Source of the DNA: Mesorhizobium atlanticum
GTDB taxonomy: Bacteria; Pseudomonadota; Alphaproteobacteria; Rhizobiales; Rhizobiaceae
Assembly: GCF_003289965.1 (NCBI RefSeq)
Contig: NZ_QMBQ01000001.1
Span: 186,001-250,000 of the forward strand
DNA length: 64,000 nucleotides
Direction of reading: 5' to 3'
The position numbers and the translations under genes were made by a program. How positions within the stretch are numbered: position 1 is the stretch's first letter; each line of letters starts with the position of its first letter. Positions 42,927 through 56,199 of the stretch are shown here, piece after piece. The notes beneath the pieces were generated by a model that did not search any database, was not told the DNA's origin, and saw only the letters and a program-made list of their open reading frames with translations.

Positions 42927-44414
42927 CTATTGCGCCTTGTCGACGCGATCAAGGATCGCGCGGTAGCGGCTGCATACGGCGGCGTCCTGGTAGAAATCCA
43001 CTTCGGTATCGATGATCTGGTCAAGGCTCATTCCGCGATAATGCGCCTTGACCTTCGCCAGGACATCTTGCGCCTGCCTGATGTCGCCCAGTTCGGAATG
43101 GCAGATGATAAGGCGGATGAGCGACCATGGTGTCACGGTCGCCATCTTCGCGTAGCAGGCAGCCGCCTCGCGATATCGCCCGGCCGTCGTCAGCAGGACG
43201 CCACGGAAGTCGTCGTACCATCCCACGGCGTATGGGTCGCGGCGCTGGGCTTCGGCTATTTCATCGAGCCCTTGCTCCGGCCTGTCCGTGTGATTGAGGA
43301 AAATAGCGCGGATGCTGAGAATGAACGGATCGTTCGGATTGAGCGCAACCGCCCGGTCAAGGCTGATTTCCGCTTGCCTGAATTGGCGCAGGTACAAGTG
43401 AGCGAAGCCGGTGGCGAGATGCCCATAGGCTTCGTCGGGATCGAGGCCCAATGCTGTTCTTGCGATCTCCAGTCCGGAATGCAAATGGCCGGGATTGTTG
43501 TAGTCCCAATAGTACTTGATGGACTCCACGAAGCTCAGCATGGCGTGGGCGGCGGCAAACTGCGGATCGAGCTTTACCGCCTGGCGCAGAAATGGCTCCG
43601 CTTCGAGCACCGTGTCATAGACGGCCGCCAGTTGCAGCGCCCGCAGGTAAGACTCATAGGCTGACATGTTGTTGGTTGGCCTGGCCCTGGCGCGCGAAGC
43701 AATCGCGGTTCTGGCCTGCCGGGCCAGACGCGCCGCGATCATCCGGGTGATTTCGTCCTGGATGGCGAAAATGTCGTCGAGTTCCCGGTCGTAGTGTTCG
43801 CCCCAGATATGGGCCATCGACAAAGCATCGGTTAGCTGCACGGCGACCCGCACCCGGTTGCCGATCTTGCGCACACTGCCTTCGACGACATATTGGACGC
43901 CAAGCTTGCTCGCCACCTCCGCCGGGTCATGCGTCTTGCCGCGGAACTGGAACGAGGAGTTCCGCGCGATGACCAGAAACTCCTTATACTTGCCGAGCTC
44001 GGCAATGATGTCTTCGGTAATTCCGTCGCTGAAATAGTCCTGCTCCGGGTCGCCGCTCATATTGTCGAAGGGCAGTATGGCGATAGACGGTCTGGACGAC
44101 GCCGCTGCATCTGCCGAAACCGCGAAGGGTCTGGGCCCTGCATATTTGTAGCCGCGACCATGCACGGTAGCGATCAGCTCGGCAGACAGAAGTTTGCGCA
44201 GCGCCGAAATGTGGACCTGCAGCGTGTTCTCCTCCACCACCACGCCAGGCCAGACCGCATCGAAAAGTTCGGCCTTGCCGAGCACCTCATCGGGCCTGTC
44301 GAGCAGCATGGCGAGGATGTCGAAGGAACGCGCCGAAAGCTCCACCGGGCCGTTCGGGCCCAGCAACCGCCGTTCGGCTCGCCTCAAACGATAGGTCCCA
44401 AACTCCAAGTCCAT
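42927..44414 (-). CDS. Winged-helix / TolB-like / TPR regulator (CadC-like, soluble)
   Basis: 495 residues from the ATG at 44414. N-terminal OmpR-type winged helix about residues 5-95 (LEFGTYRLRRAERRLL, then VVEENTLQVHISALRKLLS and GRGYKYAG). Next a TolB-like or adenylate-cyclase associated region (SIAILPFDNMSGDPEQDYFS, QYVVEGSVRK), then TPR helices to the end (GHLATGFAHLYLRQ). No transmembrane segment, unlike CadC. Two 26-bp direct repeats upstream (44467-44527) may be its binding sites. Confidence 0.82.
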   Translation of the reverse strand: MDLEFGTYRLRRAERRLLGPNGPVELSARSFDILAMLLDRPDEVLGKAELFDAVWPGVVVEENTLQVHISALRKLLSAELIATVHGRGYKYAGPRPFAVSADAAASSRPSIAILPFDNMSGDPEQDYFSDGITEDIIAELGKYKEFLVIARNSSFQFRGKTHDPAEVASKLGVQYVVEGSVRKIGNRVRVAVQLTDALSMAHIWGEHYDRELDDIFAIQDEITRMIAARLARQARTAIASRARARPTNNMSAYESYLRALQLAAVYDTVLEAEPFLRQAVKLDPQFAAAHAMLSFVESIKYYWDYNNPGHLHSGLEIARTALGLDPDEAYGHLATGFAHLYLRQFRQAEISLDRAVALNPNDPFILSIRAIFLNHTDRPEQGLDEIAEAQRRDPYAVGWYDDFRGVLLTTAGRYREAAACYAKMATVTPWSLIRLIICHSELGDIRQAQDVLAKVKAHYRGMSLDQIIDTEVDFYQDAAVCSRYRAILDRVDKAQ

Positions 44415-44466
44415 CGGCCAAGAACCACCCTCACGGGCAGGATAATCCAAGATCACCCTGAAGGCG

Positions 44467-44527
44467 AACTTCAGGGCCGTTCGGGAGTCTTCGCTTCAAG
44501 CAACTTCAGAGCCGTTCAGGACTCTTC
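44467..44527. repeat. Two 26-bp direct repeats upstream of the winged-helix regulator
   Basis: aacttcagGgccgttcGgga-type units at 44467-44492 and 44502-44527, differing at three positions, 35 bases apart. They lie 53-113 bases upstream of the regulator start and 63-123 upstream of the small gene at 44590. Direct repeats are the usual target form of OmpR-type winged-helix proteins. Confidence 0.65.
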
Positions 44528-44589
44528 AGGTTCGAGCCAAGGACCTGGGTGGGGAGCGGTGCCATTTGTCGCCGTCACTGGAGGACATC

Positions 44590-44805
44590 ATGGCTGACAT
44601 CCTCACCACCCCGACTTCCGTCCGGCGCTTCAAGCTGGCGCGGCTAAGCTTTCCGAGGCTTGCAATCGGCGCATCGCTCAACGCCATATCCGGCTTGGTG
44701 GGCGATGCGCTCAAGATAGCTTATGTGGACCCCTACGCCAGTCTTGGTCGCCAACCGCAAGTCGCCCCGGACGATGATCTCGAAGGCCGAGATCCCAGTT
44801 GGTGA
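44590..44805 (+). CDS. Small hypothetical protein, 71 aa
   Basis: Start ATG at 44590 preceded by GGAGG. The N-terminal half is basic (TSVRRFKLARLSFPRLA), followed by a moderately hydrophobic IGASLNAISGLVGDALKIAYV and an acidic tail ending DPSW. No recognised family. Divergent from the winged-helix regulator and convergent with the molybdopterin oxidoreductase gene, so it may be the regulator's target. Confidence 0.5.
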   Translation: MADILTTPTSVRRFKLARLSFPRLAIGASLNAISGLVGDALKIAYVDPYASLGRQPQVAPDDDLEGRDPSW

Positions 44806-44835
44806 GCCATCAGGCCATGGCAGACCGTGAAGTAA

Positions 44836-46941
44836 TCAGAGCGCCCTGAGCCAGACCTTGTTGTCATGGACGGCGGCGCCGCCATAGGGCGCCGGCGCAT
44901 CGGCGCCGGTCAGCACATTGATGCCCTCGCCCCGTTCATGCGCGCTGTTCGGCCAGATGCCTTCCGCAATCACCACGCCTCGCTTCACGCCGTCGAAGAA
45001 TCTGGCGTGCAGCACCAGGTCGCCGCGCCGGTTGCCGACCTCGACGCGGCCGCCATTTTCGATGCCGAGCGCTTCGGCATCTTCGCGGTGGATGAGCAGC
45101 TCCGGCCTGCCTTCCTTGGCCTTCGATACCGGCGTCTCGGCAAAGCTGGAATTGAGGAAGTTGCGCGCCGGCGAGGTCGCCAGCCGGAACGGATGCTCCT
45201 CGTCCGCCACTTCGATCAGCTCGACATGGTCCGGAAATTCCGGCAGCCGCTCGACGGGTCCGAACAGGCCCATGCTTTTCGGCGGCCGGTTGGGCGCCGA
45301 CTGGCCGGTCCAGTTGGGCCGGAAATGGAACTTCTTGTCGGCATGGCCGAAGCCGTTGATGAAATGCGCGTCGTCGAAGTCGGGCTGCAGGTCGACCCAC
45401 TTCTGTTCCCTCAAACTATCGAAGCTGCCGAGGCCGCGCTTGCCGAGGATGATGTCGATATGCTCGCGCTCGGTCAGGCCGAAACCCGGACGGTCGCCGA
45501 CGCCCAGCCGCTTGCCGAGCTCCTCATTGACGTAGTGGTTGGTGCGCGGCCCTTCCGGCGGCTCGATCAGCTTGGGGCCGAGCGTGATGTGCTGGTTGCC
45601 GCCGCCCTTGTAGATGTCGTCATGCTCCAGAAACATCGTCGCCGGCAGCACGACGTCGGCGAGCTTGGCCGTATCGGTCATGAACTGCTCGTGCACGCAG
45701 GTGAACAGGTCCTCGCGCAGAAAACCCTGTTTCACCAGTCGCTGCTCCGGCGCGACATTGGCCGGATTGGTGTTCTGGATCAGCATCGCCGTCACCGGCG
45801 GGCCGCCATAGAGCGCGTCTTGGGCTCCGGTCAGCACCGGGCCGATGCGCGAATGGTCGAGATAGCGGATGTTCGGGTCGCGCATCGCGGTGCCTTCGAG
45901 CACATCCTGGTTCAGCTTGAAGATGCCCGAATTGGAATGGAAGGCGCCGCCGCCCTCATATTGCCAAGCGCCGGTGACGGCGGCGATCGAGGACGCGGCG
46001 TGCATGTTGATCGAGCCGTTGCGCTGGCGCGCGAAGCCATAGCCGAGACGGAAATAAGTCTTCTTCGTCGTGCCGACGATCCGCGCGAAAGCTTCGATCT
46101 CGGCGACGGAGAGCCCGGTGATGGCGGCGGCCCATTCGGGCGTGCGGCTGCGCAGATGCTCTTCGAGCCCGCGCGGATCGTCGGTGTATCTTTCGAGATA
46201 GGCGCGGTCGGCGAGCCCATCGCGGAACAGCACATGCATGACCGCGCAGGCGAGCGCGCCGTCGGTGCCGGGCCTCAGCACCAGGCCGAGATCGGCCTGC
46301 TTCATCGTGGCGTTATCGTAGATGTCGATGACGACGATTTTCGCGCCGCGCTCTTTCCGCGCCCGCATCGCATGGGTCATGACGTTGACCTGCGTGACCA
46401 CGGCATTGGTGCCCCAGATCACGACGCAATCGGCCTTGGCCATCTCGCGCGGGTCGGGACCGCGCAAGGCGCCCACACCCATCATCCAACCGGTCCAGGC
46501 GAGATTGGTGCAGATCGAGCCGAAGAAGCCTGAATATTTCTTCGCGTGACGGAGCCGTTCGATGCCGTCGCGCTGCACCAGCCCCATCGTGCCGGCGTAG
46601 AAATAAGGCCAGACGGTTTCCGAGCCGTATTTCTCTTCCGCCGCGATGAATTTTTCCGCCACGAGGTCGAGCGCCGCTTCCCAGCTCGCTTCCTTCCAGG
46701 CGCCCTCGCCTTTGGCGCCCGCGCGCGCCAGCGGCTTCAGCAGCCGGTCCGGATGATGCACCCGGTCGGCATAGCGCGCGACCTTGGCGCAGACGACGCC
46801 CGCCGTATAGCTGTTCGCCTTGGCGCCATGCACGCGGCCGATGCGGTTGTTGTCGAGCACCTCGACTTCGAGCGCGCAGGTGGAAGGGCAATCGTGCGGA
46901 CAGGCCGAATGGCCGATCCGGAGCTTGGCGTGCTGGTTCAT
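44836..46941 (-). CDS. Molybdopterin oxidoreductase, stand-alone
   Basis: 701 residues. An N-terminal [4Fe-4S] motif CPHDCPSTC with C14, C18, C22 and C51 is followed by the molybdopterin domains: FYAGTMGLVQRDG, the conserved CVVIWGTNAVVTQVN, VIDIYDNATMKQADLGLVLRPGTDGAL and a C-terminal dinucleotide-binding domain (NGGRVEVGNRRGDL). It resembles formate dehydrogenase/thiosulfate reductase-like members. No Fe-S or membrane subunit gene is nearby and there is no Tat signal, so a cytosolic reductase or oxidase is expected. Substrate not inferable. Confidence 0.87.
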   Translation of the reverse strand: MNQHAKLRIGHSACPHDCPSTCALEVEVLDNNRIGRVHGAKANSYTAGVVCAKVARYADRVHHPDRLLKPLARAGAKGEGAWKEASWEAALDLVAEKFIAAEEKYGSETVWPYFYAGTMGLVQRDGIERLRHAKKYSGFFGSICTNLAWTGWMMGVGALRGPDPREMAKADCVVIWGTNAVVTQVNVMTHAMRARKERGAKIVVIDIYDNATMKQADLGLVLRPGTDGALACAVMHVLFRDGLADRAYLERYTDDPRGLEEHLRSRTPEWAAAITGLSVAEIEAFARIVGTTKKTYFRLGYGFARQRNGSINMHAASSIAAVTGAWQYEGGGAFHSNSGIFKLNQDVLEGTAMRDPNIRYLDHSRIGPVLTGAQDALYGGPPVTAMLIQNTNPANVAPEQRLVKQGFLREDLFTCVHEQFMTDTAKLADVVLPATMFLEHDDIYKGGGNQHITLGPKLIEPPEGPRTNHYVNEELGKRLGVGDRPGFGLTEREHIDIILGKRGLGSFDSLREQKWVDLQPDFDDAHFINGFGHADKKFHFRPNWTGQSAPNRPPKSMGLFGPVERLPEFPDHVELIEVADEEHPFRLATSPARNFLNSSFAETPVSKAKEGRPELLIHREDAEALGIENGGRVEVGNRRGDLVLHARFFDGVKRGVVIAEGIWPNSAHERGEGINVLTGADAPAPYGGAAVHDNKVWLRAL

Positions 46942-46994
46942 GCGGGGTGTTTAGCGGGTTTTGCAGGAGAGGTGTAGGGCCAGACGAGGCTCCT

Positions 46995-47178
46995 CCTTCT
47001 CCCCTGTGGGAGAAGGTGGCCGGGCGAAGCTCGGTCGGATGATGGGTGTTGGAAGGATCGCAACGATTAAGAAATTGGCGCTTGAAGCGCCCTATTCTTC
47101 AGCGCCCAGTTTCTTCCAGCACCCCTCATCCATCTCGGCGCTGTGCGCCGATCCACCTTTTCCCACAAGGAGAGAAGG
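46995..47178. repeat. RIME-like palindromic repeat, family A copy 2
   Basis: About 184 bp with outer hairpins ccttctcccctgtgggagaagg (46995-47016) and ccttttcccacaaggagagaagg (to 47178), and inner sequences cttccagcacccctcatcc. It fills most of the 248-base gap between the start of the molybdopterin oxidoreductase gene and the end of the ABC-F gene. The copy inside the EamA gene is the closest in the window. Confidence 0.82.
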
Positions 47179-47189
47179 AAAAGGGCGCG

Positions 47190-49067
47190 CTACTCCGCGA
47201 TCCCTTCCTCATATTCCGCCGACATCGCCAGCCACTTGTCCTCGTTCACGGCAAGCGTATGGGCAAGCTGCGAGCGCTCCTTGGCCAACCGCGTCGCGGT
47301 GGAGGGATCCTTCTCGTAGATCGCCGGGTTGGCGAGCTCGTCCTCGATCAGGTCGATGCGCTTGCGGATGCGGTCCATCAGCGCCTCGGTGGCGCGGATT
47401 TCCTTCGCCAGCGGCTCCAATGCCGCGCGGCGCTGGGCGGCCTCGCGGCGGCGGTCGGCCTTGGAAGCCTTGTCGGCTTCCTTCTGCTCGCGGCGGTTGG
47501 AGGACACGCCGGTGACCAGCGTCTTATAGTCCTCCAGGTCGCCGTCATAGGGATTGACCGCGCCGTCCTTGACCAGCCACAGCCGATCGGCCGTCGCCTC
47601 CAGAAGATGCCGGTCGTGCGAGATCAGGATCACCGCGCCCGGGAAATCGTTCAGCGCATGGATCAGCGATTCACGGCTGTCGATGTCGAGATGGTTGGTC
47701 GGCTCGTCGAGGATGAAGAGGTTCGGACCCTCGAAGGCGGACAGGCCCATCAGCAGCCGTGCCTTCTCGCCGCCGGACAGATCCCTGGCCGCTGTGTTCA
47801 TCTTCTCGGTCGACAGGCCGAACTGGGCGACGCGGGCGCGCACCTTGGCTTCAGGCGCATCCGGCATCAGCCGGCGCACATGCTCATAGGCGTTTTCCTC
47901 TGGGCGCAGATCGTCGAGCTGATGCTGAGCGAAGATCGCCACCTTCAGTCCGGGCGCAACCGTGACCGAGCCGGTCTCGGCCTTTAGCCGCCCGGCGAGC
48001 AACTTGGCGAAGGTCGACTTGCCGTTGCCGTTGGCGCCGAGCAGCGCGATGCGGTCGTCGGCATCGATACGCAGCGTCATCTTCTTCAGGATCGGGTTGC
48101 CTTCGGTATAGCCCACATTGACGCTGTTCAGCGCCACGATCGGCGAGGCGACTGTCTTGACCGGCTCGGGAAAGGAGAACGGCCGCACCGTGTCGTTCAC
48201 CACGGCGGCGATCGGCTTCAGCTTCTCCAGCGCCTTCAGGCGCGACTGCGCCTGCCTTGCCTTGGAAGCCTTGGCGCGGAAACGCTCGACGAAGGATTCC
48301 ATGTGCTTGCGCTGCGCTTCCTGCTTGACGCGGCTTTTCTCCTGCAGCTCCCGCTGCTCGGTGAGCTGCCGCTCGAACTGGTCGTAGCCGCCACGCCAGA
48401 AGGTCAGCTTCTTCTGATCGAGATGGACGATCGAGTTGACGGCGCGGTTGAGCAGGTCGCGATCATGCGAGATCAGCAACACCGTGTGCGGATACTTCGA
48501 GACGTAGTTCTCAAGCCACAGCGTGCCTTCGAGGTCGAGATAGTTGGTCGGCTCGTCGAGCAGCAGCAGGTCCGGCTCGGAAAAGAGCACGGCGGCCAAA
48601 GCCACGCGCATGCGCCAGCCGCCGGAGAAGGACGAGGCCGGCCGCTTCTGCGCGGCATCGTCGAAGCCGAGGCCGGCCAGGATGGTGGCGGCCCGGGACT
48701 CTGCCGAATGCGCGTCGATGTCGGCGAGCCTGGTGTGTATCTCGGCGATGCGGTGCGGATCTGTCGCGGTCTTCTCCTCTTCAAGCAGAGCCTGGCGCTC
48801 GACATCGGCCTTCAGCACGATTTCGATAAGCGGCTCCTCGGTGCCGGGGGCTTCCTGCGCCACCTGGCCGATGCGCGTGTTTTTGGGCAGGCTGATCGAG
48901 CCGGTCTCCGAAGGAAAATCACCCGTGATTGCCTTGAACAGCGTGGTCTTGCCGGTGCCGTTGCGGCCGACAAGGCCTGCCTTCGTGCCGGCCGGCAGGG
49001 TGAGCGAGGCGTGATCGAGAAGCAGCCGCCCCGCCATGCGCAGCGTAAGGTCGTTGATGATAAGCAT
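47190..49067 (-). CDS. ABC-F family ATPase, YheS/Uup-like
   Basis: 625 residues from the ATG at 49067. Two ABC domains: Walker A GRNGTGKTTLF (near 32-42) and GANGNGKSTFAK (about 335-346), each with a LSGG signature (FSGGWRMRVALA and LSGGEKARLLMG) and DEPTNYLDL/DEPTNHLDI. A positively charged linker (EKSRVKQEAQRKHMESFVERF) between them is the P-site/arm region. ABC-F proteins act on ribosomes and lack membrane helices. It is a housekeeping-type gene; no antibiotic link is visible. Confidence 0.87.
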   Translation of the reverse strand: MLIINDLTLRMAGRLLLDHASLTLPAGTKAGLVGRNGTGKTTLFKAITGDFPSETGSISLPKNTRIGQVAQEAPGTEEPLIEIVLKADVERQALLEEEKTATDPHRIAEIHTRLADIDAHSAESRAATILAGLGFDDAAQKRPASSFSGGWRMRVALAAVLFSEPDLLLLDEPTNYLDLEGTLWLENYVSKYPHTVLLISHDRDLLNRAVNSIVHLDQKKLTFWRGGYDQFERQLTEQRELQEKSRVKQEAQRKHMESFVERFRAKASKARQAQSRLKALEKLKPIAAVVNDTVRPFSFPEPVKTVASPIVALNSVNVGYTEGNPILKKMTLRIDADDRIALLGANGNGKSTFAKLLAGRLKAETGSVTVAPGLKVAIFAQHQLDDLRPEENAYEHVRRLMPDAPEAKVRARVAQFGLSTEKMNTAARDLSGGEKARLLMGLSAFEGPNLFILDEPTNHLDIDSRESLIHALNDFPGAVILISHDRHLLEATADRLWLVKDGAVNPYDGDLEDYKTLVTGVSSNRREQKEADKASKADRRREAAQRRAALEPLAKEIRATEALMDRIRKRIDLIEDELANPAIYEKDPSTATRLAKERSQLAHTLAVNEDKWLAMSAEYEEGIAE

Positions 49068-49203
49068 AGCCGCGCTTTTGCACGGGACATCGGCGCTTCG
49101 CAAGAGCCAGCGTCTGGACGAGGCCTGCCGCGCGGTCTGCAAACGTTCAGCAAAAAAATCGACGGGGCTGGAACCAGTTGCCGACCGAAGCGTTTGGAGG
49201 CCC

Positions 49204-49437
49204 GTGATCCGCTATCTCGCCCTCGCCTTCATCTTCTTCCAGGTCGCCACGACAACCGCGCTGGCGACGCAGGTGGTTCTGTTCGAGAGCGAGACTGCTC
49301 CAATTGCTCTTCCAGTTGAATCGACGGGCCGTGCACCGACACAGCCAATCTCCCCGCTTATGGGGCGCGCGACGGAACATTTGCTGATCCAGATCGACAG
49401 CGGAAAACAACTCCGGCCATCGCCCATGAATGACTGA
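49204..49437 (+). CDS. Small exported hypothetical protein, 77 aa
   Basis: GTG start at 49204 with RBS TGGAGG 3 bases before CCC. The N-terminus IRYLALAFIFFQVATTTALA is a Sec signal peptide, followed by TQVVLFESETAPIALPVES and a polar tail ending RPSPMND. No family is recognised. Back to back with the ABC-F gene (136 bases between starts). Confidence 0.55.
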   Translation: MIRYLALAFIFFQVATTTALATQVVLFESETAPIALPVESTGRAPTQPISPLMGRATEHLLIQIDSGKQLRPSPMND

Positions 49438-49462
49438 GAGGCAGCGCTCCCACCGCCCTGCC

Positions 49463-49516
49463 GGGCATCTCCCCACAGGAAGGGAGATCGTTCACTCCCG
49501 TCTTTCGCCAATCATC
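49463..49516. repeat. Family C intergenic repeat, copy 2
   Basis: Hairpin gcatctcccc...gggagat followed by ctttcgccaatcatc, matching the arrangement at 28376-28460. It lies between the small exported protein gene and the LprI-type gene. Confidence 0.5.
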
Positions 49517-49623
49517 GCTGCTTACACTTTGCTTGCCACGTCACGGATTTGGCGTTGATCGCCGCCATTGTCTCAACCTATGCTGGCATAGGCGCCGGGG
49601 CCGATTCAAACAGAGGGCAGATC

Positions 49624-50394
49624 ATGTCGAGCAAGACCTCGCTCCTTTCGGCCTCGCTGGCGGTCGCGATTTTCGCAATCGCGGCCGGGCTGCTTCTCAC
49701 AACGCCCGCGGCCCGCGCGGCAGCCGTCGACTGCGCGACGGCGAAGACGCAGGCCGACCTTGCCACCTGCACGACCGCGAATGCCGCTTCGGCCGACGCA
49801 GGGCTCAACGCTGTTTACAAGGCGCTGGCGGCCCGTCTCGCTCCCGCCGACCTGAAACGCCTGCGCGACGCGCAGCGCGCCTGGATCCCGTTTCGCGACA
49901 AGGAATGCGCCTTCCGCACCCAGCCCTATGCCGACGGTTCGATCTATTCGAGCCTGGTCGGGGTTTGCAAGGCGGAGTTGACCAAGGCGCGGCTGGCGCA
50001 GTTGCAGCACCAGTTGCAATGCCCGGAAGGCGATCTTTCCTGCGTGCCGCAAAGCGGCGGCAGTGCCGCGAATGCCGGCGCCGCGCCTGCGAAGGCCCAG
50101 CCTGCCAAGGCCGCGCCTGCGACAGCTAAAGCTGCGCCTGCGACGGCCAAAGCCGCGCTTGCGAAACCCGCCGCAGCCCAGGCTGGCCAGAACGATACGA
50201 GGCCATGCGTGCAATCCGCCGGCAAGGCGAAGTCGGACCAATATGTCTCGCAATGCGTCCAGGTTTCGCCGGCGACCAACCCGCCCTGCAATGGCCAGAA
50301 CGCATGCAGCATGATGATCGACGAGATCAAGCGCGGCTGCGCCATGATCGGCAATGACAATCCGCCGGCCTTCTGTTCCGCCTATAAGGGCTGA
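49624..50394 (+). CDS. Exported LprI/DUF1311-domain protein with Ala/Lys/Pro linker
   Basis: 256 residues from the ATG at 49624. Signal peptide (LAVAIFAIAAGLLLTTPAARA) then an LprI/DUF1311 domain with its cysteines (VDCATAKTQADLATCTT, QRAWIPFRDKECAF, VGVCKAEL). A repetitive Ala/Lys/Pro stretch (residues 155-190, APAKAQPAKAAPATAKAA) joins a second Cys-rich tail (PCNGQNACSMMIDEIKRGC). LprI-type proteins include periplasmic lysozyme inhibitors, but the role here is not proven. Confidence 0.78.
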   Translation: MSSKTSLLSASLAVAIFAIAAGLLLTTPAARAAAVDCATAKTQADLATCTTANAASADAGLNAVYKALAARLAPADLKRLRDAQRAWIPFRDKECAFRTQPYADGSIYSSLVGVCKAELTKARLAQLQHQLQCPEGDLSCVPQSGGSAANAGAAPAKAQPAKAAPATAKAAPATAKAALAKPAAAQAGQNDTRPCVQSAGKAKSDQYVSQCVQVSPATNPPCNGQNACSMMIDEIKRGCAMIGNDNPPAFCSAYKG

Positions 50395-50687
50395 GCCGTG
50401 CGCCCGCCCAGCCGCAAGCCCGAGGCAATCAACATTCCCGGGCGGAAGATCAATCCGGCGCGGCAAGACAACCGCAAGTTAGGCTTGTGCTCAATATTGG
50501 TGCAGCGATCGACGATACCACCAAAAAAGGACAGCAAAATCTTCCGGGCCGGGCATGATGCTTGTCAAAAATTGATTTCAGTTTTTATCCTAAACCTGCA
50601 ACCTTGCGGACGCGCCGTGAGTCGTGAGTAGGCGCCAACGATAACTTGGTCCAAGCAACTTGGCCCTTGCAATGTCAGGAGCTCACG

Positions 50688-50882
50688 ATGGGCGAAGCGG
50701 TCAACGATCTGCGAACGCTGAGATATGTGGCGGAGATCGCGCGCAGGCTGGCGAAGATGCTCTCGCGCACGCGCTACCAGATGCTCGTCTATTTTCTTGA
50801 AATGACCGCCGTAGAGGCGGACAGCCTCGCCGCCGAGCAGGATCGCGACCGCCACGACGAGAGCAAGCCGCCCCGCAACTGA
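50688..50882 (+). CDS. Small hypothetical protein, 64 aa
   Basis: ATG at 50688 with AGGAG upstream. Helical and basic: LRTLRYVAEIARRLAKMLSR, then TRYQMLVYFLEMTAVEADSL and a charged tail. No membrane segment or signal. A sequence of 293 bases without a gene precedes it. Family not recognised. Confidence 0.55.
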   Translation: MGEAVNDLRTLRYVAEIARRLAKMLSRTRYQMLVYFLEMTAVEADSLAAEQDRDRHDESKPPRN

Positions 50883-51031
50883 TGCCGGGTGTTCGGCGCG
50901 TTGGCAGAGACCACTTTTGCGGGATTGCTTGAAGCGCGTCGCGCTGAAACGGATTCAGGCGTGGCGCTGTCAGTCTTCGTTTGACGCATGTGGATGTCCC
51001 AGAACCGCTGCGCGCTTCCGGGCGACTGGCA

Positions 51032-51205
51032 TCAATTGCCTTTCTTCTCCAGGCCGCTCATGCGGTCCAGGATGGCGAGGCATTTCAGCCGCCGCGCCTC
51101 GATGACCACGCGGTGCTCATGCTCGAGAATGGCGCGCTCGAAGTCGTCCAGCGCGGCGAGCGCGGCGTGCAGATCGGCGGGGGGACGTCCCAACGAAAAC
51201 AGCAC
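51032..51205 (-). CDS. Possible small protein, 57 aa
   Basis: A GTG start at 51205 gives MLFSLGRPPADLHAALAA then DDFERAILEHEHRVVIEARR and ending GLEKKGN; the sequence is helical and looks protein-like, while the upstream part of the same frame does not. No good RBS. The surrounding 50883-51350 region has no other gene. Support is weak. Confidence 0.3.
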   Translation of the reverse strand: MLFSLGRPPADLHAALAALDDFERAILEHEHRVVIEARRLKCLAILDRMSGLEKKGN

Positions 51206-51350
51206 GCGCCGCGCTTCGACCCCCCTCGGCCGCGCCGACGGACACCTGTCCGGCCACGCGGCGACGCAACATGCCGAGAGCGGTCCGACGGCCGCGCCAT
51301 GACGATGGCGCGGCCTCATTCATTGCCTCAGGCAGCACCTCGGTCCGGCC

Positions 51351-51803
51351 TCACGCCTTGCCCTTGCGCTTGCCCTTGCCCGCATCACCGCCGGCCGGCT
51401 TGCGGCCGAGGCCGGAAGATTTGGCCAGCGCCGAGCGAGTTGCCGAATAGCTGGGCGCCACCATCGGATAATCGGCAGGCAGGCCCCATTTGGCGCGGTA
51501 TTCGTCCGGCGTCAGGCCGTGATCGGTCGCAAGGTGGCGTTTCAGCGACTTGAACTTCTTTCCGTCCTCCAGGCAGACGATGTGATCCGGGAAGACCGAA
51601 CGCTTCGGGTTGACGGCGGGCGTCAGCGCCACCGCCTCCTTGACGACGCTGCCGCCGGCGAGCTTGCGCACCGATGCGCTGACGCTGGCGATCAGATCAG
51701 GCAGGCCGGAAGCAGGGAGCGGATTGTTGCCGACATAGGCGGAGACAATGTCGGCGGTCAGTTCGATTGCAGTCTTATCGTCGATGTTGGACAATTTTTT
51801 CAC
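51351..51803 (-). CDS. MucR/Ros family regulator with altered zinc finger
   Basis: 150 residues, GTG start at 51803. Follows the MucR/Ros pattern: ELTADIVSAYVGNN at the N-terminus, then the finger segment HIVCLEDGKKFKSLKRHLATDHGLTPDEYRAKW split by family-typical residues, and YPMVAPSYSATRSALAK with a basic tail. The second coordinating Cys of the Ros finger (CLECG) is Asp here (CLEDG). MucR proteins control exopolysaccharide, motility and virulence or symbiosis genes and bind AT-rich DNA. It may be one of several MucR paralogues in mesorhizobia. The upstream region is AT-rich. Confidence 0.88.
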   Translation of the reverse strand: MKKLSNIDDKTAIELTADIVSAYVGNNPLPASGLPDLIASVSASVRKLAGGSVVKEAVALTPAVNPKRSVFPDHIVCLEDGKKFKSLKRHLATDHGLTPDEYRAKWGLPADYPMVAPSYSATRSALAKSSGLGRKPAGGDAGKGKRKGKA

Positions 51804-52147
51804 CTTCTGCCGGCCCTCAAATCGCCAGCTTGTTTTTAAGACTTTTGTCGGTGTATCGAATTGGACAAGCCCCCCAACGGACCGTCCAGAGTCAGTAAAG
51901 CTACGCGACTCAATACCGGATTATGTTTCTACGCTGGCTGCAAACGCGCAAGTTAGGATTTCTAATAGCTATAACAGATGTTTTATAGCACCGGTGGTCC
52001 GGCTGGATAGGTAAAACCTACGGTGGCACTCGGTCGGCCAAGGAAGTTGCTGAAAAATCGAAGTTCAGGCCAAGTTCCGCCACGGTAACGATAATCCGCC
52101 GGTTGGATGTCGGCCATTCGCGCTTCCGCGGCGCCAGGGCAAATCGC
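51804..52147. other. AT-rich regulatory region upstream of mucR paralogue
   Basis: A 344-base gap without a gene. Bases 51930-52000 are clearly AT-rich (gttaggatttctaatagctataacag), unlike the surrounding high-GC DNA. MucR-type proteins bind AT-rich promoters and often repress themselves, so this may contain an autoregulatory site. No RNA gene was recognised. Confidence 0.45.
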
Positions 52148-52369
52148 TCATTTGACGGCGACGCCGCGCCTGATATCCGCCGAAGGGCTGTCCGCCAGGA
52201 TTTCCAGCACGCGTTTCCAGCGCGCGCAGCGGCCAAAGTCCCTTTGCTCGATAGCCTTTTCCGCCTTCATGGCTGCATAGAGCGACGCTTCCGCGCCAAA
52301 CTCCCTGACCAGCCAGTGCGCCTCCTGTCTGGCGCGGCGTTCGTCCTCGTCAACGGGCATTCTGGACAT
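52148..52369 (-). CDS. Small hypothetical protein, 73 aa
   Basis: Start ATG at 52369 (an alternative at 52360). Helical, charged: MSRMPVDEDERRARQEAHWL, then EAEKAIEQRD-like FGRCARWKRVLEIL and RRGVAVK. Its start overlaps the stop of the EamA gene by 20 bases, so it is translationally linked to that operon. Family not recognised; role in the oxygenase/exporter operon is possible but unsupported. Confidence 0.55.
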   Translation of the reverse strand: MSRMPVDEDERRARQEAHWLVREFGAEASLYAAMKAEKAIEQRDFGRCARWKRVLEILADSPSADIRRGVAVK

Positions 52370-53477
52370 TGTGCCTGGTCTCCGTACCTTCGATGCCGAC
52401 CGCGAGGCAACTGCCAATGACGAGGACGGCGCCGGCAAGCGCCGTCATCGACAGGCTTTCGCCCGACAAGGTCAGAAGAAACGTGGAAGCGATCGGCGTC
52501 AGATAGGCGACGACCGCTATTTTCCCGCCGTGATCGAGCTTTGCCGCGCGCGACCAGAAATAGTAGCCGAGCCCCATCGGGCCGGCGCCGAGATAGAGGC
52601 CGAGCAGGAGATGCGCACCGGTCAGGCGTCCAGCGCCGTCATGCAGGCACCAGGCAAAGGTGAGCGCGACGCCGATGAGTGCCGAGGGCAATAGCAGACG
52701 CTCCGGCGACACGCCAAGGCGGCCGACGGTAAGCGAGTAGAAGGCCATGCAGAGCGCCGAACCGAAAGCGGCGAGATAGCCGACGACGCTGCCGCCTCCG
52801 AACCAGGCCCTGTTGAACCAAAAATGCGCGCGCCCTCCGGAAATGACCAGCGCCACGCCGGCGAAGCCGACGGCCGCGGCCAGCCCGAGCAGCAGTGGAC
52901 GACGCGGCCGGCCCAAAAGGATAACCGCCGCGGCGGTCATCAGCGGCCAAGTATAGGCGACGAGGTTCGCCTCGATGACCGGCATCGAGGCGAACCCGAT
53001 ATATTGCAGCACCATGGTGCCGACCAGACCAAGGAAGCCGACGGCGTAGGCGGCAAGCGCGGGCCTCCCCCTCTCCCCTTGTGAGAAAAGGCGTCGCCGA
53101 AGGCGACGAGGTGCTGGACGGAGTGAGGCTTTGTCATCGTCAGGCGCGAGTGCCAGACGGGACAAATCGCGTTCCTTCCAACACCCCTCATCCGTGTCGG
53201 CGCTACCCGCCGATCCAGTGCTCATCAGCCGGATCAGCGCGAAGACCAGGGCCGCCCCGCAAAATTGCAGGAACTGCACTTGCGACACCGGATAGAGGGC
53301 AAGCAGCGTCTTGCCGACCAGGGCGTTGGTCGCCCAGAGCGCCACCGCGCCGAGGGCGAAGGCCAGCGCCGCCGCGGGGGCGGCGCTGGAACGGTCCTGA
53401 CAGTCCGGCACGACCGGGCCGAGGCTCAGCGACGCTGAGGGCGGCTGGCGCTCGACCGGATCGTTGGTCACTACCAC
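52350..53477 (-). CDS. EamA-type exporter with in-frame repeat insertion
   Basis: 375 residues from a GTG at 53477. EamA/DMT transporter with about ten membrane helices: residues 35-60 (ALGAVALWATNALVG), 64-86, then AYAVGFLGLVGTMVLQYIGF, and a C-terminal half with WSRAAKLDHGGKIAVVAYL. Residues about 88-138 (GSADTDEGCWKERDLS to LFSQGERG) interrupt the helix 2-3 loop and are encoded by a RIME-like repeat (53064-53220). The frame stays open, so the protein may still function. The start overlaps the oxygenase gene by 7 bases, indicating one operon; a 2OG-oxygenase product may be the exported compound. Confidence 0.8.
   Translation of the reverse strand: MVVTNDPVERQPPSASLSLGPVVPDCQDRSSAAPAAALAFALGAVALWATNALVGKTLLALYPVSQVQFLQFCGAALVFALIRLMSTGSAGSADTDEGCWKERDLSRLALAPDDDKASLRPAPRRLRRRLFSQGERGRPALAAYAVGFLGLVGTMVLQYIGFASMPVIEANLVAYTWPLMTAAAVILLGRPRRPLLLGLAAAVGFAGVALVISGGRAHFWFNRAWFGGGSVVGYLAAFGSALCMAFYSLTVGRLGVSPERLLLPSALIGVALTFAWCLHDGAGRLTGAHLLLGLYLGAGPMGLGYYFWSRAAKLDHGGKIAVVAYLTPIASTFLLTLSGESLSMTALAGAVLVIGSCLAVGIEGTETRHNVQNAR
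53064..53220. repeat. RIME-like palindromic repeat inside the EamA gene, family A copy 3
   Basis: Ends cctccccctctcccct and the inner ttccaacacccctcatccg and tcggcgctacccgccgatc match the copy at 46995-47178. The element is read through in frame by the EamA gene and adds about 51 residues without a stop. Confidence 0.8.
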
Positions 53478-54304
53478 GACTCCCTTGCTCCGCCGGAAAC
53501 CGGCTCAGCGGCGGGCTGCGGCATGGGATGCTCCTCGGCGTGGCGCCGGTAGGCGGGCAGCTGGTTGGTCCAGACATCCTCGGCCAGTTCGTTCACCCAG
53601 GCACGGTCATGGTCGTTGTCGGCGGCGAGGTAGAACATGCGGTTGTCGTCGACATAGGGCTTGGTCGCCGAGCGCTGGTTGAGCACCAGCGTGACGCGCT
53701 CGCCGAGCTGGATCGGCGCGGTGCGGTGGAGCACGCCCAGGAACTGGCCGAGCGTGGCGTAGTTCATCTTGTGGTCGATGCGCATGATCTTGTTGCGCGG
53801 CAGGTCGCGGCCGGATTCCAGGATGGAGCGGCCGGTCTCGGAATCGTCGCAATAGATTTCAAGATGACCGCCGATGAGAGGGTCGCTGATCGACAGCGGG
53901 ATGAGCTCCGTCACCGGAACGCCGTCGCAATGCCATTCGACGGCGCCGTCCCTGGGGTTCATGAAGGTGACGGTCGAACCGACGATCGACAGCGGATAGG
54001 GCTCGAGCTTGGTGCCCATCATGTCGGACAGCCTTTCCAAGCGCAGCTTGTCGTGCAAAAGCTCTTTGATTTCGGGAATATAGCGGTCGGCGCCGGTGAT
54101 AAAGGTGAGGTCGAGGTGTTTGTGAACGGCGTGGCTGGCCTTCAGCTTCAGGGCAGCTTCCTCGATCGCGGCAAGCAGAGCCGGATCGTAACCGTGACGA
54201 TACTGGGCGACGCCGAAGGTCGAGACTTTCCAGGCGGTCTCATGACCAATGATGGCCTCGCGGCTCATTGCGCAACGCAGTTCGGGAATTGTATGGGCGT
54301 TCAT
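53471..54304 (-). CDS. Fe(II)/2-oxoglutarate-dependent oxygenase-like protein
   Basis: 277 residues. The metal triad H125-x-D127 (EWHCDG) and H193, followed ten residues later by R203 (HRTAPIQLGER), match the jelly-roll 2OG oxygenase pattern. Around it, GGHLEIYCDD and MNYATLGQFLGVLHRT support a full core. Function could be hydroxylation or desaturation of a small molecule. It is the first gene of an operon with the EamA exporter (7-base overlap) and is divergent from a LysR regulator (112 bases), the likely controller. Confidence 0.75.
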   Translation of the reverse strand: MNAHTIPELRCAMSREAIIGHETAWKVSTFGVAQYRHGYDPALLAAIEEAALKLKASHAVHKHLDLTFITGADRYIPEIKELLHDKLRLERLSDMMGTKLEPYPLSIVGSTVTFMNPRDGAVEWHCDGVPVTELIPLSISDPLIGGHLEIYCDDSETGRSILESGRDLPRNKIMRIDHKMNYATLGQFLGVLHRTAPIQLGERVTLVLNQRSATKPYVDDNRMFYLAADNDHDRAWVNELAEDVWTNQLPAYRRHAEEHPMPQPAAEPVSGGARESW

Positions 54305-54416
54305 TCTACTTTCTCCAAGATGGGGGCAACACTTGGTTAACAGTCATTTAAACGCCCACCCCTGTAAATTTAGGAATGCTGGTGGTAGCGTAAGCCCAGC
54401 TTAAGGTCGAAACCCC

Positions 54417-55385
54417 GTGCGTCTGCTCAGTCAGGTCAACCTCAACTCGCTGAAAATCGTGGAGAGCGCCGCGCGGCACAGGAATTTCACGCGCGCCGGC
54501 GAAGAGCAGTTTATCACCGCTTCCGCCGTCAGCCAGCGCGTGAAGAGCCTTGAGGACCAGTTGCGCTTCAAGATCTTCGAGCGCGGCGGCAACGCGGTGT
54601 CGTTGACGCCGGAGGGCGAGACCTATGTGGCGCGCGTGCGCGAGGCGCTGGAACGGATCGTGGCGGCGAGCATGGAGGCCACCGGCCAGTCGCAGGCGCA
54701 TGTGCTGCGGATCTGCGTGCTGCCGACCTTCGCGGCGCGCTGGCTGTTTCCCAGGCTGATGACCTTCCAGCGGCAATATCCCGACATCGAGATGCGGGTG
54801 TCGACATCCTACGCCACGCATGAATTCTCGACCTCGGAATATGATCTCGAGATCCGCTACGGCGACGGCAATTTCCCCGGCCTCATCTCAGAACTGCTGT
54901 TCAAGGAAGACCTGACGCCGGTGTGCAGCCGCAAGCTGTTTCACGAGGTGCTGGGCGACAAGCCGCTGTCAAGGGTGACGCCGGAGGACCTGCGCTTCTT
55001 CACGCTGCTGCATTCCGAAACCTGCACCCAGAACTGGCAGTCGTGGTTGGGCTTTGCCGGCGCGAGCTTCGTGCTTGGCGAAACCAGGAGCGTCTATTTC
55101 GATTCCTGCATGATGTCCTACGAGGCCGCCAATGCCGGGATGGGCTTTGCCGTCGCCAACCGTGCCTATATGGCAAGCGACATCCGCGCCGAACGGCTGG
55201 TGGCTCCCTTCGCTGTCCACCATCCCAACACGGCGGGCTGGTACTTCGTAAGCCCCATCAAGGCGCTCGGCGCCCGCAAGGTGGAGCTGTTCAAGCAGTG
55301 GATCCTGGCCGAAGCGGCGCTGACGCAGCGCCAGCTCGACGTCGAGATCGCCGGCGGACAGCCGGGGCGCGCGGCGGTGGCGTGA
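54417..55385 (+). CDS. LysR family regulator, GcvA-like
   Basis: 322 residues from a GTG at 54417. Winged helix about residues 7-65 (NSLKIVESAARHRNFTRAGE, ASAVSQRVKSLE), then an effector domain of the GcvA type with YDLEIRYGDGNFPG. Divergent from the oxygenase-EamA operon, so it probably governs it and responds to a related small molecule. Confidence 0.86.
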   Translation: MRLLSQVNLNSLKIVESAARHRNFTRAGEEQFITASAVSQRVKSLEDQLRFKIFERGGNAVSLTPEGETYVARVREALERIVAASMEATGQSQAHVLRICVLPTFAARWLFPRLMTFQRQYPDIEMRVSTSYATHEFSTSEYDLEIRYGDGNFPGLISELLFKEDLTPVCSRKLFHEVLGDKPLSRVTPEDLRFFTLLHSETCTQNWQSWLGFAGASFVLGETRSVYFDSCMMSYEAANAGMGFAVANRAYMASDIRAERLVAPFAVHHPNTAGWYFVSPIKALGARKVELFKQWILAEAALTQRQLDVEIAGGQPGRAAVA

Positions 55386-55394
55386 GGTGTCAGC

Positions 55395-55916
55395 TCATTC
55401 TCGCAGCAGATACTTCAGTTCCATCACCCTGTTCGCACGATGATCGAGATGACAGTTCGCATTGTCCAGCGCAGCCATCGTTCCCTCATAGTTCGAACGG
55501 ATTTCACAATCGAAATCGCTCCACGCCCTCCACATCGACTGTGATTTTTGGATCCCCTTGGGCGCGCCTTTGAACTGTAGCAGACGACCATAGACATCAT
55601 CGAGAATACGACCCCAGGCCATCGCCGAAAAACCGGAGCACTGATTGTTGTCGTACTGGTTGCCTTTCCCACCATCGAATTGAGAAACACAGACCTTGGT
55701 CGGCGTGTACACGCAACTGTCGCGCTCCTGAGGCTCCACACTATCAAGACAACCACGTGCAATGGCCTCCGCCGAGTCTACGGCGACCTCGTCACTGCTC
55801 CAGTCGTAGAGCTTTTCGGTCGAGTTTGCCGTGCTTGGAAAAGCGGGAACACCGAGTGCGACCGACAGCGCTATGCGGGCGGTCAGCCCGGAAAGGGACA
55901 ATAGTTTGAGAAACAC
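55395..55916 (-). CDS. Exported LprI/DUF1311-type protein
   Basis: 173 residues from a GTG at 55916 (GGAAGAC next to it). Signal peptide LSGLTARIALSVALGVPAFP. The mature part has the LprI pattern of cysteines (ARGCLDSVEPQERDSCVY, KVCVSQF, NNQCSGFSAMAWGR, SDFDCEIRSNYEG). A second LprI-type protein in the window besides that at 49624, but without the Ala/Pro linker. Convergent with the LysR gene. Base composition is lower in GC than its neighbours. Confidence 0.75.
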   Translation of the reverse strand: MFLKLLSLSGLTARIALSVALGVPAFPSTANSTEKLYDWSSDEVAVDSAEAIARGCLDSVEPQERDSCVYTPTKVCVSQFDGGKGNQYDNNQCSGFSAMAWGRILDDVYGRLLQFKGAPKGIQKSQSMWRAWSDFDCEIRSNYEGTMAALDNANCHLDHRANRVMELKYLLRE

Positions 55917-56199
55917 GTCTTCCAAGCTCCCCGTTCGTCCGAAGCGTAGGACCATTCCAGCAATCCGATAGAAGTGAACCAGTTATGGCGCAACCTGGCA
56001 GAATTCCGATATTTCCGGTGAGTTCCCTGGGACTGCATAGCCGGTTAGCGCGATCGCACCATGACGCAAGGCCGAGACTCAGCTATGTTGGATTGCGCGG
56101 CGGGCCTGATTTTCCCGCTTGGCCGGCGCTATCCAGCTTCCTCCCAAGCAGCGCCGGCCTTCTTCGCTTCAGGCCGACGATGATTCAACCCGCCCTGCC

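Follow-up and report, generated by a model that had tools for sequence, protein, structure and literature searches.

In-frame palindromic repeats in one loop of an EamA exporter across species of Mesorhizobium

The EamA gene of the window and its insert

The minus strand of the window, that is, the whole 64,000-nucleotide stretch of Mesorhizobium atlanticum DNA that was analyzed, contains an open reading frame (ORF) of 375 codons (52350-53477) that encodes an exporter of the EamA/DMT superfamily and harbors an in-frame insert. The protein belongs to the EamA family, with a match to Pfam PF00892 (E = 3.8e-19) that scores 69.8 bits against a gathering score of 28.2. It scores 67 bits against NCBIfam YddG, below the cut-off of 300, and is related by sequence to PDB 5i20, which we take to be a YddG. 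Directly upstream of the EamA gene and outside the element lies another minus-strand ORF (53471-54304), which served as a linked phylogenetic marker.

The insert is a palindromic repeat of type M2 (53060-53217, minus strand; the types are introduced below) that occupies approximately residues 88-139, with the GTG at 53477 counted as residue 1, in the loop that joins predicted helices 2 and 3. It was detected with nhmmer (59.5 bits, E = 3e-17) using a profile of 11 full-length copies from G000, the genome of the window, none of them from EamA. One of these 11 members is the intergenic copy of the same family at 46987-47186 (plus strand; 201.8 bits), located between the minus-strand ORFs 44836-46941 and 47190-49142, and the best profile orientation of the EamA insert, on the plus strand of the window, is the same as that of this copy. 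BLASTN with the repeat at 46970-47195 as the query also matched positions 53171-53217, at 85% identity (E = 4e-9), and the ORF 52350-53477 stays open across the insert. These observations bear out the original prediction of an intergenic repeat that keeps the frame open within EamA, which had been placed at 53064-53220, within a few bases of the boundaries given here.

In a structure model used for helix positions only (low confidence: pLDDT 50, pTM 0.31), the insert is non-helical and falls between the helices at residues 64-92 and 138-164, in accord with the proposed location between helices 2 and 3. YddG-type transporters have a cytoplasmic N-terminus so that, given the relationship with 5i20, the insert-bearing loop would be cytoplasmic. 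The stretch from LQFCGA to LQY comprises 91 residues in the window protein compared with 49-60 in 26 insert-free orthologues, a net gain of 31-42 residues, which is less than the length of the insert because the native loop itself consists of about 20 residues and is variable. The addition is accordingly smaller than the 51 residues claimed at the outset.

The predicted RNA fold of the window copy (53070-53217; -71.6 kcal/mol, z = -3.9) is weaker than those of the inserts in orthologues L009 (-112.5 kcal/mol, z = -11.8) and L007 (-107.6 kcal/mol, z = -10.4), and a comparison with its full M2 relative L061 (genome G131) shows that 27 bp are missing from the window copy, among them the outer stem on the gene-5' side. 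Per nucleotide, the folds of the 29 parsed EamA inserts span -0.76 to -0.49 kcal/mol; the mean is -0.71 among 73 repeat copies from elsewhere, and 48 windows taken from gene bodies give -0.44. Judging from these predicted folds, the EamA inserts range from near-pristine to decayed. The copy in the window ranks with the more decayed ones and is old and partly deleted, so that the suggestion of a living case of repeat-driven insertion applies to the genus, in which the inserts of some species have folds comparable to those of free copies, rather than to this particular copy.

Orthologues, reading frame and selection

An EamA orthologue was detected at E = 1e-80 or better in 102 of 146 Mesorhizobium genomes, and 68 of these orthologues were read; the matches of the other 34 start at residues 137-141, as those of the insert-free ones do. 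A full in-frame repeat is present in 32 of the 68, a shortened in-frame remnant in 7 (L083-L086, L088, L090 and L091; L086, which has no profile match, was judged by eye), and no repeat in 26, the other three being special cases, namely, L078 with a run of N, L080 with a composite insert and the frameshifted L087. All 32 full inserts are read through and are placed after FALIR in the helix 2-3 loop, with repeat-profile scores of as much as 153 bits in other species. Mesorhizobium sp. WSM3859 and M. hawassense are among the insert-bearing strains. Aligned in one orientation, they comprise four types, P (12 inserts), M1 (14), M2 (3, including that of the window) and M3 (3). The original prediction named two outcomes under which the insertion idea would fail, a segment carried by all orthologues and an insignificant match to the repeat. 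Neither was observed, given that the match is highly significant (E = 3e-17) and that 26 of the 68 orthologues lack the segment. They do not lack exactly that segment, as had been expected, the net difference being the 31-42 residues indicated above, and the loop varies in all orthologues read.

The insert of L080 (G163) is different from the others and longer, a composite in the EamA loop that holds only part of the repeat. In L087 (G121), the sole clear case of a broken EamA frame among the 68, the C run of the left stem is one base short, and there is a right-stem loss; the frameshift could mark a pseudogene, act as a slippage switch or stem from an assembly error. In the midpoint-rooted gene tree, insert-bearing orthologues are found in two parts, with L082, L090 and L091 grouping with the insert-free L013, L089 and L093, which implies either two insertions or one insertion along with losses. 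L014, within the main insert clade, contains neither an insert nor a visible remnant.

The EamA inserts keep the frame far more often than other copies of the repeat, a conclusion that is well supported. All 14 M1 inserts (the reference L009 included) are in frame and stop-free, compared with 21 of 73 other copies in the matching frame, and the same holds for all 11 tested P inserts of the 12 (the reference L007 included, L070 omitted due to a misparsed boundary), compared with 11 of 73. This test covered P and M1, with M2 and M3 outside it, and the Fisher p values on frame keeping are too small because the species share ancestry. One P copy contains non-triplet indels that cancel out.

In the C-terminal part of the gene, pN/pS is 0.23 for P carriers, 0.23 for M1 carriers, 0.25 for all 32 carriers and 0.24 for the 26 insert-free orthologues, and the corresponding JC dN/dS values are 0.19, 0.19, 0.21 and 0.17. 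Purifying selection is thus similar with or without the insert, so that the carriers as a group do not look like pseudogenes; the insert-containing protein is presumably made and capable of transport. Within the insert, the in-frame pN/pS is 0.55 for P and 0.64 for M1, compared with 1.72 and 0.60 (P) and 1.15 and 0.62 (M1) in the wrong frames, that is, close to one wrong frame and below the other, which gives no clear sign of peptide-level selection. Differences at codon positions 1/2/3 are distributed 15/39/46% in the P inserts compared with 27/35/38% in other copies, and 27/35/38% in the M1 inserts compared with 17/32/51% in other copies; P alone leans slightly towards protein-level constraint.

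Insert types and repeat copies outside EamA

The repeat family, about 150 to 200 bp in length, consists of two inverted hairpin arms, with a stem close to CTTCTCCCCTTGTGGGAGAAGG, and a variable center between them. In EamA, type P is found in one orientation and types M1, M2 and M3 in the other: the P center occurs with the plus orientation in 12 of 12 inserts and the M1 center with the minus orientation in all 13 that were parsed. Of the 12 P inserts, 11 share a deletion of 9 nt at the left junction, which is also present in 1 of 13 M1 inserts and 2 of 4 parsed M2/M3 inserts. This parsing yielded no center from L001, L061 and L062, and L071 along with the three M3 inserts matched neither reference center; in another parsing step, L001 and L061 were unparsed, and L010 and L070 were misparsed. 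The linkage of type, orientation and junction points to a few founders. The P and M1 peptides are unrelated, with mean loop charges of +5.8 and -0.1, respectively, and differ between sister species. Inspection by eye suggests that each stem variant, gene-left or gene-right, mostly remains on its own side in either orientation; outside EamA, the stem arrangement seen in the M inserts is rare (4 of 73 copies).

The type of the insert is unrelated to phylogeny, and close relatives often differ. Nearest neighbors defined by the upstream gene share the type in 8 of 35 cases compared with 8.4 expected in shuffles (remnants and special cases were counted as types), and the types are scattered over the midpoint-rooted gene tree. 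Insert identity does not track the identity of the gene at 4-fold sites (rho = 0.22 and -0.16); L004 and L011, for example, have inserts that are 98% identical and share 66% of the 4-fold sites. The P or M1 type showed no link to the upstream gene or to the flanks, which were examined up to 240 bp away in 40-bp windows. In the sister pair L004 (M1) and L067 (P), the right stem and the 18-nt junction are identical, and the interior is different. Across pairs of different type, the mean edit distance of the right junctions is 5.95 for near relatives (n = 19) vs 6.54 for distant ones (n = 314), with no significant difference (p = 0.28), and the right stems of near relatives are less alike than those of distant ones (4.26 vs 2.91), so that these comparisons lend no general support to stem-anchored exchange.

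In G000, where 40 of the 98 candidates were scored, the search returned 92 match rows, with several rows to a copy, and the searches for free copies scored 5 per genome, so that the copy numbers are lower bounds. We examined 91 distinct copies outside EamA, 40 in G000 and 51 elsewhere in the genus, part of the latter chosen for long open frames. According to our own codon-usage gene caller, which relies on no annotation, none of the 91 copies is inside a predicted gene, 8 touch a gene edge and 80 have a predicted stop codon at a distance of no more than 60 bp; 23 lie between convergent genes and 4 between divergent ones. As an in-gene test, this caller was dropped because it placed 17 of the 32 EamA inserts inside a gene, 12 partially inside and 3 in intergenic regions. 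It was replaced by the coding score on both sides of a copy within an ORF open across it, with the threshold set after viewing both sets. By this two-sided score, all 32 EamA inserts range from 10.8 to 22.9, and the 91 other copies attain at most 9.7, that is, no other clear in-gene case is present in this incomplete list of copies. The family is an intergenic repeat of rhizobia, to which the EamA copies are the exception.

The highest-scoring copy outside EamA (L167:2024-2221 in G011, score 9.7) falls within a 355-codon open frame and, according to the gene caller, is flanked by minus-strand genes on both sides; it may be an antisense shadow. On contig C24 of G000, at approximately 425-437 kb, at least seven copies (L042, L050, L051, L057, L059, L140 and L150) occur within 12 kb with changing orientation, five of them spaced by 500-600 bp between small plus-strand genes. 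At the order level, at least 17 of 121 genomes contain a match to the repeat at E = 1e-8 or better, three of these in the genus, with 6 candidates scored per genome. Partial matches were detected in 8 plasmid records, 6 without a gene under the match and 2, from one organism, with an SDR gene. An Rfam search at E ≤ 1 over 44000-56000 found nothing on the repeat and returned two unrelated sub-threshold rows; a sub-threshold match to a trypanosomatid snoRNA at 48235-48296, in an ABC-F-like ORF, is almost certainly due to chance. The RAYT domain PF01797 was not found in any of the 16 genus genomes searched.

Free copies 97-99% identical to the M1 insert of L009 are present in G082, G074, G077 and G150, among others, and the two that were inspected with our own script both lie outside genes. 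Two free P-like copies (G103 and G148), likewise outside genes, have P-like centers and are 93% identical to L007, which makes them no more distant from it than several EamA P copies (91-93%). P-like centers are found in 0 of 73 other copies in the first sample, and free P copies seem to be uncommon in the genomes of that sample. The existence of free copies near both M1 and P elsewhere makes fresh insertion possible for both types. Confinement of P to EamA is ruled out by the two free copies, and the likeness of the L004, L009 and L011 inserts (97-98%) as proof of allelic exchange is weakened by the free copies that are equally close to L009. One free copy, L261:1493-1656 (G082:C1:3659538-3659684), matches the EamA insert of genome G011 at 99% identity; the EamA match of G082 itself starts past the insert region.

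Origin of the inserts and relation to known systems

We are somewhat inclined to conclude that the repeat was inserted in frame in an ancestor within the genus and was tolerated, and that a few founder types were then exchanged between species and trimmed. Under this scenario, a palindromic repeat of approximately 150 bp would have entered the helix 2-3 loop of EamA in the ancestor of part of the genus, and the loop would tolerate the insert, such that the gene stays under purifying selection. Selection would act on the insert mainly via the reading frame, purging stops and frameshifts while the peptide drifts. Both the insertion and the selection for the frame are well supported. A few founder types, P in one orientation and M1, M2 and M3 in the other, might have spread between species through exchanges that replaced only the insert, in which the similar outer stems may have anchored recombination; on several occasions, in-frame deletions would have shortened inserts while sparing the repeat ends. 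Allelic exchange fits the linkage of type, orientation and junction as well as the L004/L067 pair. Taken further, the EamA loop could be a trans-species shuffled cassette, in which Mesorhizobium species trade a few in-frame alleles of the repeat, present in two orientations, as independent blocks delimited by the palindromic stems of the repeat itself, fast enough to erase the phylogenetic signal of the type without a trace in the flanking DNA. We hold this stronger version only tentatively, as possible but doubtful; if true, the palindromic repeat would be a recombination handle that re-programs a segment of about 50 residues in a protein in one step, beyond plain insertion.

The same loop could instead be a hot spot that independent fresh copies of active subfamilies repeatedly enter and from which old ones are deleted, with no exchange between species. 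The coexistence of near-pristine and decayed inserts, the remnants, which show that sites get cleared, and the free copies close to the M1 and P inserts in other species agree with re-insertion, which is a serious rival even if we consider it somewhat unlikely: the full linkage of center and orientation (12 of 12 and 13 of 13) and the same 9-nt deletion in 11 of 12 P inserts are unexpected from many independent events, P-like centers are missing from the 73 copies of the first sample, and the single orientation of each type stays unexplained. Ectopic gene conversion by copies from the same genome, or flipping of the interior between the inverted stems, would change type and orientation and draws on the stems being inverted repeats, on the stem variants that by eye tend to keep their gene side and on the rarity of the M-type arrangement elsewhere. 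We find it improbable, given that no pure inversion was observed among the 25 parsed P and M1 inserts, in which center and orientation are inseparable, and that, with 5-40 candidates scored per genome, the best other copies of the same genome are less similar to the inserts than EamA copies of other species (for L009, 93-94% vs 98-99% for EamA copies elsewhere; for L007, 85% vs 92-96%). In-place inversion as the main source of the two orientations was set aside because center type and orientation never separate.

Co-option of the inserted peptide for a function, for example, regulation of the exporter, is very unlikely: although, unlike the 91 other copies, the insert persists in frame across a large part of the genus, and the P inserts differ less at first codon positions (15% vs 27% of the differences in other copies), the P and M1 peptides are unrelated in sequence and charge even between sister species, in 7 species the loop has returned to nearly its native length, and protein-level selection gives no clear sign. 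That there was no insertion at all, the similarity stemming from GC-rich low complexity or from an ancestral loop lost elsewhere, is hardly credible. The window copy is degraded, the loop is variable in all orthologues read, and the midpoint-rooted tree is compatible with loss in some species, but profile scores reach 153 bits for EamA inserts in other species, the L009 insert folds like free copies (-112 kcal/mol), and an ancestral loop would require that a dispersed 150-bp repeat originated here. The profile match and the insert-free orthologues also argue strongly against a resemblance by chance.

The EamA loop presents a natural experiment on proteins taking in mobile DNA, in one gene, at one site and over dozens of species. 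All stages are present: the empty site, the near-pristine insert, the swapped type, the decayed copy, the in-frame remnant and one broken frame.

RIMEs (Rhizobium-specific intergenic mosaic elements) are palindromic. In the passages of the literature cited here, they are rhizobial and described as intergenic (PMC2573895) and, compared by description, share both features with the Mesorhizobium repeat, the EamA copies being intragenic. REPINs, or BIMEs, are described in the relevant passages as extragenic elements present in many copies, each a pair of inverted palindromic units whose spacer is less conserved (PMC3116915). The Mesorhizobium repeat likewise has two inverted palindromic units with a variable spacer; membership among REPINs was dropped because RAYT is found in 0 of 16 genus genomes. 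The GTAG/CGTC REPs, according to the sections consulted, are mostly located downstream of genes, with some intragenic cases, and different REPs occupy approximately the same recB site in two Xanthomonas species (PMC3733652). REP units measure 20-40 bp, in contrast to about 150 bp for the Mesorhizobium element.

The parallel that the original prediction drew with Rickettsia holds in the parts of the reports cited here: the RPEs of Rickettsia and their Wolbachia counterparts are palindromic repeats of 100-150 bp inserted in frame in conserved proteins, with one product shown to be active (PMC2229807, PMC10969869). For RPE-4/6/7, elements of different RPE groups can be found at neighboring positions in orthologues, a pattern that the authors attribute to a hot spot or to divergence (PMC3767692). 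Depending on the passage, RPEs are reported in 19 reading frames or in 44 integrations, nearly half of them in ORFs (PMC2229807, PMC10969869, PMC3767692). By these descriptions, the RPEs and the EamA repeat are alike in being palindromic and in frame in a conserved ORF, with the frame kept. Of the features of an RPE-like class, we observed a dispersed-repeat copy in a conserved ORF as well as insert-free orthologues along with an open ORF, but not many unrelated genes carrying the repeat: RPEs are described in many genes per genome, whereas EamA is the single clear host gene of the Mesorhizobium repeat, as judged from the 91 copies examined outside it. The EamA repeat further differs from the RPEs, as described, in its two orientations with unrelated peptides, in types unlinked to phylogeny over 32 species and in its in-frame remnants. 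The questions raised in Rickettsia, tolerance or function and hot spot or divergence, become testable in culturable soil bacteria.

In the portions of the literature consulted, in-frame palindromic repeats are described in Rickettsia, in Wolbachia, among enterobacterial and Yersinia MITEs, in Coxiella and among the REPs of several genera (PMC2229807, PMC5896051, PMC6649704, PMC10969869, PMC3767692, PMC3733652), and a search of titles and abstract starts in the open-access literature did not turn up any Mesorhizobium protein reported to contain such a repeat. In-frame palindromic repeats as such are already known elsewhere; what is distinctive here is the swapping at one site across species.
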